NCBI GenBank assembly: GCA_937891465.1
Contig: CALAHF010000205.1
Span: forward strand, 1-64,000
Direction of reading: 5' to 3'
Length of the DNA: 64,000 nucleotides
Source: an uncultured Verrucomicrobiales bacterium
GTDB lineage: Bacteria; Verrucomicrobiota; Verrucomicrobiia; Verrucomicrobiales; DEV007
The translations under genes were made by a program, and so were the position numbers. How positions within the stretch are numbered: the first letter of the stretch is position 1; the number at the start of each line of letters is the position of its first letter. The notes beneath the pieces were generated by a model. The model saw nothing but the letters and a program-made list of their open reading frames with translations, had not been told where the DNA came from and did not search any database. Below are positions 35,194 through 43,191 of the stretch, piece after piece.

Positions 35194-36477
35194 TCAAGCA
35201 ACAGGCTCGACTTCCACCTCCGCCAGCAGCATATCGCTAGCGCGCTTGCGACGCAGTTTCTGCCAAATCCACCAAATCCAAAACGGGATATTGATGAGGA
35301 AAATCCACACGAGCTTCTCATTGTTGTAGAAATACAGCTTCATCAGAAATTCATTAAAATAGTGGAAGCTGATAAACAGGAATCCCATCACCAGCCCCAT
35401 AGAACGACTGAAAAGTGCTACGAATGCGAAGATTTCCAGCAGCACTCCCATCGCCATAAAAATCCGGCTCACATTGGCATGCTCCATCATGTCTTTGGCA
35501 TACGGAACGGGCTCACGGTTAAAATTCACGTCGTCGAGATCGTTGTAATAATTCTGACGATCAGTCTTCACCAGTTGGATGCCAATCATGTGACTGTTCG
35601 CAAACCATTCTCCGTCTGATTTGATCGGCTTGATCACCCCGGCGATGACATAACACGCGACGATCATGATCTGAGCATAGCGAATAAACTGATCCCAAAA
35701 CGTGATGCCATTGCGAGCACGCGCTTTCCGAAAACCAAATGCTTCGTGCCAATCTTTTTTACAATGCCAGAAGACCACGCACATCTGAGCAACCAGCACC
35801 ATCGTCAGCATTTGAAAACCGTGATGAGTCGCGCCCTGCGAGTTGAAAAGCGTGCGACTGCCAATGCTGACCCACACTAAAATTGGCAATGCGATGGGCA
35901 GTCCCACTCCGCTGGCATAAAGCAACAGTGCCGGCATGACCAGCCACGGCAGCATCTTCACAAAGTCAGGATCGGAGAAATACGTGAAATCAAAAATCTT
36001 TCGAATGGAGGTGAAGAAACCAGGTTTGGCATCCCCGGCCGGTGCCAAGTTTGCAAACCCGTTCGGCTGCTTCAATTTCGTATCTGACATCGCACCATCA
36101 GAAATCGGCAGCATTTCCATGACCGGTAGAAATGGGGGACGAAATGCGAGATCCGCTTCTTCGGTGATTCTGCCATTCTCAAACCAATGAGCCTTGGCTT
36201 CGCGAAGCTCCAGATACGCCCAGTTCGCCCACGTTCCTCCAAGTGGCATGGTTTGAAACACGGCGATCGCAAAGAGAATCCGCATCCAGACAATTTCGAA
36301 CCCCATGAAATGAGGGGTATTGAACGGCACGCGGACAAATCGACGAAACTTGCCAAACCAACGTCTCAGAAAATGAGCAGCTGGTGACGAATCGATTTTT
36401 TTCGTAGTGGGATATGCTGTGACTTTATCCCAGAGAGTAGTGAGACGATCCGCAAGATTTTTCAGAAAAGATGGCAT
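35194..36477 (-). CDS. HTTM-like multi-helix membrane protein, copy A
   Basis: A 427-residue protein with about seven hydrophobic helices and an amphipathic, basic N-terminus. It resembles the HTTM / vitamin K-dependent carboxylase-like membrane proteins in helix pattern, but I see no diagnostic catalytic motif. The plus-strand protein at 37552-38499 is a paralogue: both contain a GFANL segment, a HH/HHGFQ-VL-Q helix, a segment with KTDRQNYYNDLDD or KTNQQAYFDTLQA, and a C-terminal F-LEF-A-AL---R--GL-GF-FI--H pattern ending in N-PFWI. It follows the small protein at 36511-37047 (33-base gap), and the pair mirrors the divergent pair on the plus strand. Confidence 0.7.
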   Translation of the reverse strand: MPSFLKNLADRLTTLWDKVTAYPTTKKIDSSPAAHFLRRWFGKFRRFVRVPFNTPHFMGFEIVWMRILFAIAVFQTMPLGGTWANWAYLELREAKAHWFENGRITEEADLAFRPPFLPVMEMLPISDGAMSDTKLKQPNGFANLAPAGDAKPGFFTSIRKIFDFTYFSDPDFVKMLPWLVMPALLLYASGVGLPIALPILVWVSIGSRTLFNSQGATHHGFQMLTMVLVAQMCVVFWHCKKDWHEAFGFRKARARNGITFWDQFIRYAQIMIVACYVIAGVIKPIKSDGEWFANSHMIGIQLVKTDRQNYYNDLDDVNFNREPVPYAKDMMEHANVSRIFMAMGVLLEIFAFVALFSRSMGLVMGFLFISFHYFNEFLMKLYFYNNEKLVWIFLINIPFWIWWIWQKLRRKRASDMLLAEVEVEPVA

Positions 36478-36510
36478 TTGGAAATCAGGAAAAATTCAAA
36501 AAACAGGAAC

Positions 36511-37047
36511 TTACGGATGCTGAACGGCAACCACTTCGGGCGTTTCTCGGTAACCCAACTCTTTGTCGTATTCGATCCACACTTCGACCAGGGCAAGCCG
36601 CTCAGGAAGCTCACTTCGTTTGTGTTCTCTCAAATAATCGAGCAATTCGAGCCATTTCTTGACCCGCTCCTCCTGTGGCAGCTTCGTGTCTTTGGTCCCA
36701 AGTTCGTCAGCACGCTCACGAATCCACGCTTTTTGCATTTTCTTCACCTTCGGAGCCGTGATTCCCGTCAGGTGCCGAACCGGCAGCGCTTTTATATCCG
36801 CAGGCTTGGGATCAGTCCCTTCCTCCCACGTTCCGATGTAAAAGTAGTTTTCGCTCTCATCCGGATCGGAATACATCGGGAAGTACGACAGCGGATAAAA
36901 ATCATCTTTCGCCAGCAACGAAATCGCGACCACGAATGGCAGCACAAAAAACGAATGGCGATAGCGGAAGCCAAAGAAAACGCTCGCTACAATTGCGATG
37001 TAGCAGAGCCAGCTCACGTTGGCGGCGGCAAGAATTGGGAGATTCAT
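36511..37047 (-). CDS. Small membrane protein with FYPLS-FPMYS motif, copy A
   Basis: A 178-residue protein with two N-terminal helices (LCYIAIVASVFFGF and FFVLPFVVAISLL) followed by the motif FYPLSYFPMYS and an outside domain of about 115 residues rich in Lys, Glu and Arg. The plus-strand protein at 37117-37539 carries the same motif (FYPLSSFPMYS) right after its last helix, then a similar-length domain. The two genes start about 70 bases apart in opposite directions. The next gene on this strand encodes the HTTM-like protein. Function unknown; the constant pairing suggests a joint membrane complex. Confidence 0.65.
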   Translation of the reverse strand: MNLPILAAANVSWLCYIAIVASVFFGFRYRHSFFVLPFVVAISLLAKDDFYPLSYFPMYSDPDESENYFYIGTWEEGTDPKPADIKALPVRHLTGITAPKVKKMQKAWIRERADELGTKDTKLPQEERVKKWLELLDYLREHKRSELPERLALVEVWIEYDKELGYRETPEVVAVQHP

Positions 37048-37116
37048 TAAGCTGAGTTGAAAAAAACGAAGGTTTCGCTAAGACACATGGCTGAAATTAC
37101 GTTTTACTGCAAACGA

Positions 37117-37539
37117 ATGATACGTCGAATTCTTAGTTTTTTGCCCTTCGTCCTCGTGGTAGCCGCCTGCTATTTCACGGCGGAGTTTTACCCGCTGTCA
37201 TCATTTCCAATGTATTCAAAATTCGATAATCGCACTTACATCTGCTATTTGCGTGATGCTGATGGCAATGAGTTGCCTACTGTAAAATCGACGGGGATTT
37301 ATGCATCGGAGTTGAAAAAACGTTACGGTGATGAGCTGAAAGATCTGAAAAAGGAGCAGGATTACAAAGGCTCTCATTTCGACTGGACAACTGAACGGAA
37401 GGCCGAAGCAGGCTCAGAAGCACTCGCCTATTTGAAGGAATTTGAAAAAGTCCCACAAAATGTCGAATTGATCGATCGCAGGCTCTATCTCCGAAACGGA
37501 AAAATCGAATTTGAAGAATCCGTTGTCGGAAAAAATTGA
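37117..37539 (+). CDS. Small membrane protein with FYPLS-FPMYS motif, copy B
   Basis: About 140 residues from the ATG at 37117: one helix (ILSFLPFVLVVAACYFTA), the motif FYPLSSFPMYS, then an outside domain with CYLRDADGNELPTV and a helical KKRYGDELKDLKKEQ section. The open frame extends back to a TTG at 37057, and another ATG lies at 37087, but these only add hydrophilic residues before the helix. It is the paralogue of the divergent gene at 36511-37047 and lies 12 bases before the second HTTM-like gene, so the two are cotranscribed. Confidence 0.65.
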   Translation: MIRRILSFLPFVLVVAACYFTAEFYPLSSFPMYSKFDNRTYICYLRDADGNELPTVKSTGIYASELKKRYGDELKDLKKEQDYKGSHFDWTTERKAEAGSEALAYLKEFEKVPQNVELIDRRLYLRNGKIEFEESVVGKN

Positions 37540-37551
37540 TCGCTCTCAGCT

Positions 37552-38499
37552 ATGTTTCTTCGCTCTTTTTTAAAAAACGACTTTGGCAAAACCCGCTACG
37601 CCGGTTGGGAATGGGCCATCATGCGCAGTGTCTTTTGTGTCTTGCTTTGGCTGGCCACAACGCATCGGCTACTGCCTATTCCTATCGATATACACGACCA
37701 AACGGATCAGGAAAAAGGCAATGGTTTTGCCAATCTGTTCAATCTCGACTGGATTGGCCAACCGGGAACAGAAACCATCATTCAGATCATCTTTCTCATT
37801 CTTCTGGTCATCTATGCGATCGGCAAATGGCCGCTGTTTATTTCCGGAGGTTTGTTGGTGATCCACACCCTGATCGGGTCGATTTATAGCTCTCCGGCGA
37901 AAGACCATCACGCCTCCCAGATCATCGGCATGGTACTTCTCGGACAATTTATTTGGTTCGCCTGGGAAGCCATTCGGAACCGGTTTTATCCGAAACTTTG
38001 TGCTGACGGACACGATCGTCCCAGCGGTGCTATTTTTCTCTCCCAGCAACTCATTGCCGCCGCCTACACCGTTAGTGCAATCAGCAAGTGGGTAAATTCC
38101 GGTGGAGGCATCATCCCCGGTGCGAAATGGATCAGCCAGGTGCCAAACATCGCGGTTCAATTCGAAAAAACCAACCAGCAAGCCTACTTCGACACACTGC
38201 AAGCACCCGCGAATGCCGAATTCAATCAACTCTCTATTGATTTTGTCATCAATTATCCCGTCCTCGCCATGATCTTTTTCGGTTCCGCGTTCTACCTCGA
38301 GTTCTTCGCCATTCTCGCGCTGTGGAATCGCAAAATCGGGCTGATTTACGGGCTCGGACTCATCGCCCTGCACCTCGGAATCGACGCAGTGATGCACCTG
38401 ATGTTCTTTAATTTCGAAGCAGTAGTTTTTGTCTTTTTCGTCAACCTCCCCTTCTGGATTTCACGAATCGGGAAAAAGAAAACCGCACTCAATTCCTAA
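37552..38499 (+). CDS. HTTM-like multi-helix membrane protein, copy B
   Basis: A 315-residue protein with about seven helices, the paralogue of the 427-residue protein at 35194-36477 but with a shorter N-terminus and without the long loop before its third helix. Shared elements are GNGFANLF, DHHASQIIGMVLLGQF, SQQLIAAAYTVSAISKW, QAYFDTLQAPANAEF, and the C-terminal FYLEFFAILALWNRKIGLIYG followed by VNLPFWI. It follows its FYPLS-FPMYS partner. The closest recognised fold is the HTTM/DoxX-type helix bundle, which is an inference. Confidence 0.7.
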   Translation: MFLRSFLKNDFGKTRYAGWEWAIMRSVFCVLLWLATTHRLLPIPIDIHDQTDQEKGNGFANLFNLDWIGQPGTETIIQIIFLILLVIYAIGKWPLFISGGLLVIHTLIGSIYSSPAKDHHASQIIGMVLLGQFIWFAWEAIRNRFYPKLCADGHDRPSGAIFLSQQLIAAAYTVSAISKWVNSGGGIIPGAKWISQVPNIAVQFEKTNQQAYFDTLQAPANAEFNQLSIDFVINYPVLAMIFFGSAFYLEFFAILALWNRKIGLIYGLGLIALHLGIDAVMHLMFFNFEAVVFVFFVNLPFWISRIGKKKTALNS

Positions 38500-39257: not shown

Positions 39258-41310
39258 TCACGAACTCCGGCCGAGCAAATCCACCAAGGCAACAATCCCG
39301 AGCAGTTTGTCATCCACATCAACGATCAGCGTTTTGCTCGCTCCTGCTCGGATAAGTTGTTCCAGCAATTCAGCCACGCTCATATCCGGCGATGCTGTTG
39401 GCAACGAGGAGAAAGTGATGTCTGCTAGCCTCGCTTTTGGACTGTAAGTATCGCTCTTAAGAAATTCATAGACGGTGCTTCGGCGGAGCACACCAACGAG
39501 TTTTACAGTCCCGGGTTCGATCACAGGATACGTGCTGTGAGGATCTTCCCAGAGTAAATCAATCGTGTCCCCAAGCGTTTTATCAGACTGCAGCGAACAA
39601 ATATTCGTCTGCATCATCTCACTCGCTTTCTTGCCACGACGCTCTTCCGGAACTCGCGCCACAACCGAACTAATTTCTTCGGAGGTCGCGTATGCCTTCG
39701 CTGTCGTTTCAAAAAGTTGCGAGATTCCCGTCGACCCGGCCACCATCTGCCGAAAGACGTTTTCACCAAGCGCCACAAGCGTCGAAGTCTCGTTCGCGAC
39801 AGCATTATACCTCCAAATATGATCTTCCAGCAATGCCCGTTCGCCAAAGTGGTCGCCCTGCTGAATCGTTCGAATCACGTCTCCTTCATCGTCGACCACA
39901 TTAATCGATCTCGATTTCACAAATAAAACGAGAACGCCGGCTCGCCACTTTGAAACAACACATCCCCCTTTTCGAGGTGGGCTTCTTTCAAGGCCGATGT
40001 GTATTTCGGCGTCAGTAAACTCATGTCTTTCGAGAAAAAGATATCCAACGTCCAATCGGCCATCACTCGAATTTTTCGATCCAAACCGGGTAATTTGCTC
40101 AGGTAAACCGTCCCCCACATCCACCAGGCAATGAAACCCGAGAAGTTCATTCCGAAGGCATGAGCAACCGCTTTGCGATGCCCAATCGCCGCCATTTCGC
40201 GGAGTCCTTTAAATTCAAATGATTCCAACCCGCGATCCGCGCCTTCCATCGCGGCCGCGATGTTTTTCCCGCATACCACTCCCTGCCGTTGAGCAAATTG
40301 AGCTGTCGGCGGACAGTATTGATCATCCGTTCCCGCAAATGGATCGGCCGAACAATCACCCGCCGCCCAAATGTTTTCGAAATCATCGCTGATCACCCGG
40401 AGGTAGGAATCCGTCTCAACTTTGCCATAAGCACTCGCCAAATTATGCTTTGCAATTATTCACGTGATGAGCGGATTGGGCGCATTGCCCACCGTCGAAA
40501 CCACCGTTGAAACCGGCATGATCGTCCCATCATCCAACACCACTTGCCGTGCCGTCACCGACTTCAAACGATGATTCAACACCACGTTCACCCCCTGTTC
40601 TTCGAGACAAGTCCGCGTGTATTCCCCCAGATTGGGCGCCAAAGTTGGCAGCAACACTCCGCGGTTGTGAACCAGCGAAACAGAGAAATCATCGCCGTTC
40701 ACATTTTTGTAATACGGGTGAACCTCATTCAGTAAATCCACAATCTGCCCCGCCGGCTCAACCCCGGAATACCCACCGCCAACGATCACAAAATTCAAAA
40801 GCAACCGGCGCCGTTCACAATCTGAAATCAGATTTGCTTCCTCCACGGGGCTGATAATCGTTGCCCGCAGCTTCATCGCATCACCTACGTTTTGCATGAA
40901 TAAACGTGCTCAGCCATTCCCGGAATCCGACTCAGATTCACGACCGATCCCATCGCCAGCAGGATATGCTTACACTTGAACGTGATGTCCGGCGAAAATG
41001 CCCCTGCTGATGCCCGTAATGTCCTCGCAGCGAGATCGATTTCTGAAATCGCACATTTGTAACCCTGCGCGCCCTTTGCCAGTCGCCGAATCGAATTCAC
41101 CACATGCCGGGGAGCCAGCGAACCACCCGCAACCTCCGGAAGCATCGGTTGAAACGTCATGTGATTTTCATCCGAAATGATCCCGACACGTCGTCCCGAT
41201 GTATGTTTCAGCAGCGCTTTCGCACCATAGACTCCCCCAAATCCGCCACCGACAACGGAACAGTCAAGTTCGATAATTTCGAGCTATTCTTTTCGATCAG
41301 TCGTTGCCAT
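39258..41310 (-). pseudogene. Decayed NDH-2-like oxidoreductase fused to cNMP-binding and CBS domains
   Basis: Read continuously, this encoded about 680 residues: an FAD/NAD oxidoreductase of the NDH-2 type (VVGGGFGGVYGAKAL; VIVGGGYSGVEPAGQI; IWAAGDCS), a cyclic-nucleotide-binding domain (KGDVLFQSGEPAFSFYL then GDHFGERALLE), and two CBS repeats (about the last 130 residues). Four lesions interrupt it: TAG at 41284-41286 (eight codons after the ATG at 41310), a lost base near 40888 in KT-VGDAM, TGA at 40460-40462 in NPLIT-IIAKHN, and a lost base near 39919 in FYL-VKSR. Each domain still reads well in its own frame. It would have been a membrane-associated quinone reductase with regulatory input. 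Confidence 0.88.
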
Positions 41311-41475: not shown

Positions 41476-43191
41476 ATGCCGCCTCCGCTCCCATCAAACA
41501 AAAAACGTCTACACGACCTCGATGCGCTGCGTGCGTTTGCGATGCTGCTGGGGATCTTGTTGCACGCATTTTTGACGTTCATTCCGACTCCGATTTGGCC
41601 GGCCCAGGACATTCACCAGCCGGAATGGAGCATACCTGAATTCCTCAAAAATTCCGGCCTCGACCTTCCGTCAACGATCAGTCCATTTGCATTCTTGCTG
41701 GATGTCATTCACGGATTCCGCATGCAGCTGTTCTTCCTCATCAGCGGATTTTTTACGGCGATGATGTGGAAAAAACGCGGAACAGCAGCTTTGCTAAAAC
41801 ACAGGGCCAAACGCATTTTACTCCCGCTTATCATTGGAACAGCAATCATCTGGCCACTCGTTGCACTTGCGGCGGTGATAGGGGGGATTTCGAAAGCAGA
41901 TCACTCGCAGCGCCCGGACACCGTTTGGACCGCCGCCAAAACTGGAGACATCGATGCATTGGAGGAATTTCTCGCCGACGGAACCAATCCCGATGCGCTC
42001 GATCCGATTTCCGGAATCTCAGCCCTGACCTGGACGGCATGCACCGGTCAATCCGAAGCCGCCACTTTGTTGTTGAAGAACGGCGCAAATCCAAATCAGA
42101 GAGATCGCGATGGCGGCACACCGCTTCATGGCGCAGCATTCTTTGGAAATGCGAATGTCGGCGAAATTCTGCTGAAAAATGACGCCGCAGCAAACCTCAA
42201 AAACAATCGCGGCGACACTCCAACGAGTCTTCTGAAAACAGATTTCGACACCGTGAATTTCATCGCTTCGCTTCTGGAAATTTCCGTAGATACAAAAGTC
42301 TTGGAGCAAGATCGCGAACAACTTTCCCCCCTGCTCGCCAACGCTCTTGAAAAGCAAGACTCCGAATCTGAGGTGTCACCCCAAAACAAAAATGGCGATC
42401 CTTTTGCTGACGTACTTTCCGGGGTTGGCGGCCTGATTTTCGGGGCTGCAATGATTCCCGTATTCCATCACCTTTGGTTCCTTCACTACCTTTGTTGGCT
42501 CGTTATTTTGTTTGTGATCGCGGCTCTCATTCACAAAAAAAAATTCGCCCGGAAATGGTTCCCAAAAATCGGATGGCTCATTCCGCTGGCGATCATTCCT
42601 CAGCTGTTCATGTTCATGAGTTTCGGGCCCGACACAGCAACTGGAATCCTGCTTTGGCCACCAAAACTGGCCTACTACGCTGTGTTCTTCGCAGTTGGTG
42701 TTCTCTGTTATCAAAACGAACATTTCGCTGATTTCCCCAAAAGACACTGGCTGAAATTAATCCTTTCTGCCCTGCCCCTGTTTCTGATCAGTTGGTACTT
42801 TTTCAACGTCCGCAACAGTGGCTATTCGGCTGGTTTCGAAGAGGACCGGGATCGCATCATCACCGCGCATGTTATCTATTCCGTCACGGCAGTGGCCTAT
42901 GCATGGCTCATGATTTTTGGCATGCTGGGCATTTTTCGACGCTACTTTCCCGGCGAAAACAGAAGGGTTCGTTACCTTTCCGACGCCAGCTACTGGCTCT
43001 ACATCGCGCACCTCCCGGTGATGTTTTTCGTTCAAATTTTCGTTAGCACGCTCCCCATTCCGATCATTCTAAAACTGGTAATCATCTGTGGACTCACCGT
43101 CGGAGGACTCCTCATTGTTTACCAATTGGCTGTCCGTTACACGTTCGTTGGAATCATGCTGAACGGTAAAAAAATCCGTCCCTCGGCGTGA
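41476..43191 (+). CDS. Membrane acyltransferase (OpgC/acyltransferase-3) with ankyrin insertion
   Basis: A 571-residue protein with an acyltransferase-3 type framework of about ten helices (PF01757; MdoC/OpgC-like): DALRAFAMLLGILLHAFL with its conserved His, FFLISGFFTAMMWKKRG, RRVRYLSDASYWLYIAHLPV. Between helices four and five, residues about 148-250, sits a soluble insert that reads as three ankyrin repeats (AAKTGDIDALEEFLADGTNPD, ALTWTACTGQSEAATLLLKNGANPN, GGTPLHGAAFFGNANVGEILLKN). A short disordered segment follows. Such inserts may bind a protein or polysaccharide partner. The start is the ATG at 41476. No partner gene is evident. Confidence 0.85.
   Translation: MPPPLPSNKKRLHDLDALRAFAMLLGILLHAFLTFIPTPIWPAQDIHQPEWSIPEFLKNSGLDLPSTISPFAFLLDVIHGFRMQLFFLISGFFTAMMWKKRGTAALLKHRAKRILLPLIIGTAIIWPLVALAAVIGGISKADHSQRPDTVWTAAKTGDIDALEEFLADGTNPDALDPISGISALTWTACTGQSEAATLLLKNGANPNQRDRDGGTPLHGAAFFGNANVGEILLKNDAAANLKNNRGDTPTSLLKTDFDTVNFIASLLEISVDTKVLEQDREQLSPLLANALEKQDSESEVSPQNKNGDPFADVLSGVGGLIFGAAMIPVFHHLWFLHYLCWLVILFVIAALIHKKKFARKWFPKIGWLIPLAIIPQLFMFMSFGPDTATGILLWPPKLAYYAVFFAVGVLCYQNEHFADFPKRHWLKLILSALPLFLISWYFFNVRNSGYSAGFEEDRDRIITAHVIYSVTAVAYAWLMIFGMLGIFRRYFPGENRRVRYLSDASYWLYIAHLPVMFFVQIFVSTLPIPIILKLVIICGLTVGGLLIVYQLAVRYTFVGIMLNGKKIRPSA

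Follow-up and report, generated by a model that had tools for sequence, protein, structure and literature searches.

Positions 35194 to 38499 of a 64,000-nucleotide window (positions 1 to 64,000, forward strand, of contig CALAHF010000205.1, GenBank assembly GCA_937891465.1, from an uncultured Verrucomicrobiales bacterium) contain two divergently transcribed gene pairs, copies A and B, each encoding a small protein and an HTTM-like membrane protein. Here, we report that the large protein folds, in structural models, like the membrane domain of human vitamin K-dependent gamma-carboxylase (GGCX), and that the small gene is the obligate partner of the HTTM-like gene. On a narrow balance, we favor the reading that the two proteins of each pair together make up one enzyme, a split, menaquinol-using distant relative of the HTTM/VKGC membrane enzymes. 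The proposal is based on the pairing itself, natural fusions, the fold, profile homology, the alignment of a lysine, and a menaquinone gene in the genome. We know of no well-established role for the bacterial relatives of GGCX; two families without a name here gain a fold, a candidate active site, a partner logic, and a link to a human enzyme.

The locus was delimited by open reading frame analysis. A first-pass annotation, made from the sequence alone, had described it as two divergent pairs of a small and an HTTM-like protein, and this holds; it is not a chance arrangement, since two further, unlinked pairs lie on contigs C29 and C139 of the same genome, and the pairing of motif and partner recurs in about 80 further loci. 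The features are as follows.

35194 to 36477, minus strand: HTTM-like membrane protein of copy B, 427 amino acids, predicted GGCX-type fold (open reading frame, AlphaFold2 model, and structure alignment)
36511 to 37047, minus strand: small partner of copy B, 178 amino acids (open reading frame; DSSP of the model)
36868 to 36900, minus strand: FYPLSYFPMYS motif of small B, residues 50 to 60 (sequence; conservation counts)
37048 to 37086, no strand: divergent intergenic stretch of 39 bases, or 69 bases if small A starts at 37117 (sequence)
37087 to 37539, plus strand: small partner of copy A, 150 amino acids from the ATG at 37087 or 140 from the ATG at 37117 (open reading frame)
37186 to 37218, plus strand: FYPLSSFPMYS motif of small A (sequence; conservation counts)
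37552 to 38499, plus strand: HTTM-like membrane protein of copy A, 315 amino acids (AlphaFold2 model and GGCX structure match)
37909 to 37911, plus strand: His120 of copy A, invariant in 67/67, probable counterpart of GGCX His160 (equivalence judged from context)
38086 to 38088, plus strand: Lys179 of copy A, invariant in 67/67, aligned with the VKGC catalytic Lys, GGCX K218 (profile alignment)
38128 to 38130, plus strand: Trp193 of copy A, invariant in 67/67, aligned with the Trp after the VKGC catalytic Lys, GGCX W223 (profile alignment)

The small gene precedes the large one in all four pairs of the genome (A, B, C29, and C139). The small protein is single-pass and carries FYPLSxFPMYS, and the large protein has 8 to 10 helices; in small B, a transmembrane helix or helices, then the motif, are followed by a soluble beta-alpha-alpha-beta-beta domain (DSSP of the model). 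Small A has two in-frame ATGs; the divergent starts are 39 bases apart with the first and 69 with the second, the earlier figure being about 70. Copies A and B are diverged in sequence, as had been noted, with 28% identity between the large proteins and 31% between the small ones.

The large protein was searched for in 37 genomes (the window's own and related ones from its family and order) and found in 23, with up to seven matches per genome; the small gene was in pair position for 33 of 34 large genes examined in relatives. Across a phylum-wide sample of 288 genomes, the small protein occurred in four, the window's own counted, and all 18 small genes were paired with a large one. A DNA pattern of the small-protein motif, scanned across 84,980 species at one genome per species, returned 93 stretches, mostly Verrucomicrobiota. 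They held 82 strong small genes: 73 were followed by a large gene, six were truncated at the edge of their stretch, and three were unpaired, so that 73/76 testable small genes directly precede an HTTM-like gene, a fair count in the small-to-large direction only, since the scan selected on the small gene. The strict pairing asserted in the first-pass annotation is borne out, with the small protein standing alone in 3/76 testable copies. These three (L076, L147, and L157) belong to one look-alike subgroup of small genes with no adjacent HTTM-like gene, and L023, the exception among the relatives, is the converse case, an HTTM-like gene without a small gene; the two genes may have separated in these lineages.

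Natural fusions, with HTTM first and the small part behind it in one chain, were found in several lineages. They include a 475-amino-acid protein in another genome of this order (L062), one in Kofleriaceae (L128), one in Planctomycetota with an N-terminal DCC1-like domain, an HTTM-like region, and an FPMYS tail (L103), and one in the same phylum (L169) with the tail motif REYFPLSHIPMYS (YFPLSHIPMYS) and a Pfam HTTM match below the cut-off (E 1.7e-4). Unfused pairs are present in Bacteroidota (L074 and L142) and Minicystis (L121), the large protein of L074 having a Pfam HTTM match (E 0.005). In both Bacteroidota loci, a sulfotransferase-like gene follows the pair. The cooperating two-protein membrane complex suggested earlier is supported.

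Copy A was modeled with AlphaFold2 using 67 natural sequences (predicted local distance difference test [pLDDT], 93.8; predicted template modeling score [pTM], 0.91). Structure comparison gave Z 10.4 to 11.7 for each of the ten human GGCX entries listed and 5.8 for the next chain; residues 1 to 315, nearly the whole model, aligned with GGCX residues 31 to 329. Such Z values can arise by chance between helical bundles, an explanation that the large margin over unrelated chains, the whole-domain coverage, and the profile results below argue against. Foldseek alone gave GGCX no significant E-value for copy A, with query TM-scores of 0.39 to 0.46 versus 0.12 to 0.22 for the other chains listed. 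The copy B pair was modeled as one chain, the two intervening stops being read as residues purely as a modeling device (pLDDT, 85.9; pTM, 0.85); for two parts connected through a poorly modeled linker, this pTM is high, and it is suggestive of docking of the small protein on the large one. When the PDB was searched with the copy B complex, only the HTTM part was matched, by GGCX alone (VIA-align Z 10.7 to 12.2; next chain, 5.0), and nothing convincing was found for the small domain. Both large proteins share the GGCX-type membrane-domain fold of the HTTM/VKGC superfamily. No transporter came near GGCX in the copy A comparisons, and no recurrent ATPase or binding protein was seen in the neighborhoods, which makes a transporter or permease complex highly improbable, despite the multihelix membrane protein and two stray weak BPD_transp_2 matches among 34 large-protein members (Pfam). 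The earlier suggestion of a modification or transport system stands in its first half, given the fold and the catalytic-type lysine; transport found no support.

Profile-profile comparison tied the large protein to bona fide HTTM proteins, in line with the name HTTM-like given to it earlier. Against Pfam-recognized PF05090 HTTM proteins of the same order and neighbors, it aligned at full length over 268 columns (Prob 96.9, E 2e-10; reversed control, Prob 0.2), and against VKGC-like proteins of the same phylum and order at Prob 87 (E 3.7e-6; reversed control, Prob 0.7). The latter alignment places Lys179 on the catalytic lysine, with the following tryptophan also aligned. E20, H120, Y172, K179, W193, and E250 of copy A are invariant in all 67 large sequences, which are otherwise 22 to 49% identical to copy A. 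K218 of GGCX acts as the base toward vitamin K hydroquinone and removes its proton, with H160 and W223 lining the active site; M401 and M402, in the linker after the ninth transmembrane helix (TM9), wall off the pocket (PMC12589487). H120 probably corresponds to H160, judging from the sequence context, and the counterpart of GGCX K217 is not conserved, position 178 being variable. Invariant Lys, His, Trp, Glu, and Tyr are what an active site should show, and they count against a nonenzymatic membrane chaperone or assembly factor like the lipase maturation factor LMF1, in which the HTTM fold would be kept and the chemistry lost. We regard such a factor as improbable, even with the weak LMF1 match of L169, the many paralogues per genome, and the lack of a fixed neighbor.

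Named-family searches placed neither protein. Pfam and NCBIfam gave no credible match for the four window proteins, even at E 10, and Pfam named no family for 34 large and 36 small relatives, taken one by one or as alignments. The VKGC lumenal domain PF22777 was not matched in the window proteins or small relatives, and since it is absent from the pair by both Pfam and hhalign, the pair is not filed as VKGC. No Pfam match to DUF5819 was found in the window small proteins or their relatives, no NCBIfam match to SdpA in the window small proteins, and no relevant match in a PDB sequence search with profiles. Elsewhere in the same genome, C145:3146-3943 (L164:1444-3111) encodes a bona fide VKGC-like protein with HTTM, the VKGC lumenal domain, and the catalytic lysine (phmmer E 6e-44 against human GGCX), a candidate bacterial gamma-carboxylase.

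Beyond its helix, the small protein carries F-P-M-Y; Pro26 and Met32 are the same in 36/36 sequences. The linker after TM9 reads SW-D-M-M in GGCX and SWRMKL in VKGC-like proteins, and M32 would be the counterpart of GGCX M401. Ordinary HTTM genes of the same order have a separate upstream small gene encoding one helix and then WNMF, WDMF, WGMF, WEMF, WELF, or WALF; in other genes of the order, the same part is fused behind HTTM (WNMF, WSMF, or SFSMYS). In more distant relatives of the class, HTTM-like genes are paired with small proteins bearing PFxSWFLF. Two such pairs, L063 and L064, lie within a conserved glycosyltransferase/aminotransferase cluster, possibly biosynthetic, in two genomes of the class. 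Extended to HTTM enzymes in general, this pattern would make them two-part: a quinol-activating core, a ninth helix carrying an aromatic-Met linker that plugs the pocket, and an outer substrate-picking domain. GGCX would be the fused case, and Verrucomicrobiota (up to seven HTTM-like matches per genome) would hold a large split family for quinol-driven modification, possibly carboxylation, of secreted proteins. We offer this extension tentatively, as possible rather than probable.

For the window pairs, we infer the quinol chemistry, the linker equivalence, the periplasmic side, and a modified secreted protein or peptide as the product. The large protein, as the HTTM core, would bind menaquinone in its reduced form at the outer face of the membrane, and the invariant lysine (K179 in copy A), aided by His120 and Trp193, would serve as the base in quinol activation with O2. 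What follows the core in GGCX, namely, the ninth helix, the membrane-face linker, and the periplasmic domain, would come from the small protein; the invariant Met of the FYPxSxFPMYS linker would plug the quinol pocket in the manner of GGCX M401/M402, and the periplasmic domain would present the substrate. Carboxylation is one putative option for the product, and copies A and B probably serve different secreted substrates. The genome has menD above the cut-off and no match to the futalosine gene MqnA. If true, the quinol core is separate from the substrate-presenting part, and the targets of bacterial HTTM enzymes could be found with the help of a single core type and interchangeable partners.

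The same gene format, a small protein plus an HTTM protein, is that of SdpA/SdpB, and the main rival to a split enzyme is a pair for the maturation and export of a secreted peptide, with no quinol-dependent carboxylation, whose core would act as a chaperone, an export channel, or a protease partner. In B. subtilis, SdpAB and YitPO are tied to maturation of a secreted peptide (PMC6818787), and the partner of one HTTM gene of the order has a weak DUF5819 match over the motif (E 0.015, below the cut-off). The window proteins did not match the SdpB model (TIGR04033; NCBIfam cut-off, 178.4 bits), to which only the C145 gene responded (27.8 bits), and a constant third gene such as SdpC is missing; we judge this rival unlikely. 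PF05090 also matches in Bacillus subtilis, and no paper joining HTTM with DUF5819 or SdpB was found in the open-access literature searched. Because SdpB is itself HTTM-related, peptide maturation of this kind overlaps with the proposal of a split enzyme and may be a branch of the same theme.

Several results weigh against a split, menaquinol-using enzyme. Neither copy A nor copy B matched PF05090 at E<=10, and none of 34 large relatives did; with no score above the cut-off, the large protein is filed as a distant homologue and not as a PF05090 member. H120 is invariant in a matching context, in a stretch outside the VKGC profile alignment, and the lysine is not universal among HTTM relatives, L201 having Arg there. 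By hhalign, the profile of the small domain resembles neither that of the VKGC lumenal domain (Prob 2 to 3) nor that of the W.MF partners; we therefore make no claim that the partners share an ancestor, and what we propose is equivalence by position, order, and motif. VKOR had no match in the genome, and respiration could regenerate the quinol instead. The neighborhood survey found no constant third gene beside the pairs beyond the synteny of close relatives, and the substrate is therefore probably encoded elsewhere.

The history of the island was followed in a 79-row tree. At divergent loci, the A-type proteins make up a single clade (support, 100/100) and the B-type proteins another (100/99); the two are not sisters, B grouping with copies of the C29 and C139 types. 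A constrained topology with A and B as one clade was rejected (approximately unbiased [AU] test, p-AU 0.0018). The separate clades and this test reject a local inverted duplication as the origin of the island, and the earlier description of an old, retained inverted duplication falls with it. On the tree, A and B are distant, old paralogous pairs kept adjacent, in at least seven genomes, this one among them, perhaps for joint regulation.

Two neighboring loci in the window were also noted. At 41476 to 43191 (plus strand), an Acyltransferase-3 membrane protein has an unusual layout, with ankyrin repeats between two parts of its acyltransferase domain. At 39258 to 41160 (minus strand), a FAD-dependent oxidoreductase/cyclic-nucleotide-binding/CBS-like protein is split into overlapping open reading frames in different frames, reflecting either a decaying gene or assembly frameshifts.

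Compared with GGCX and the bacterial VKGC-like proteins, the window pairs have the same HTTM-core fold with the catalytic-type Lys and the following Trp aligned, and the natural fusions have the GGCX order of parts (HTTM, ninth helix, linker, and soluble domain). They differ in being split into two genes, in a partner domain unrelated by sequence to PF22777, in having no room for the Arch domain, in lacking a PF05090 match, and in not conserving K217. With the two-gene PF05090 systems that have a W.MF or W.LF partner (unnamed or DUF5819-like), they share a single-helix small gene directly upstream, an aromatic-Met motif after the helix, and full-length homology of the HTTM parts, whereas their large proteins are beyond the reach of Pfam and their partner has FYPxSxFPMYS and no profile similarity to the W.MF partners. 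Bacillus SdpA/SdpB is likewise a pair of a small and an HTTM-type protein, from which the window pairs differ in having neither a match to the SdpB model nor a constant third gene. DCC1-like plus HTTM proteins are resembled through the L103 fusion only, the window pairs themselves having no DCC domain.
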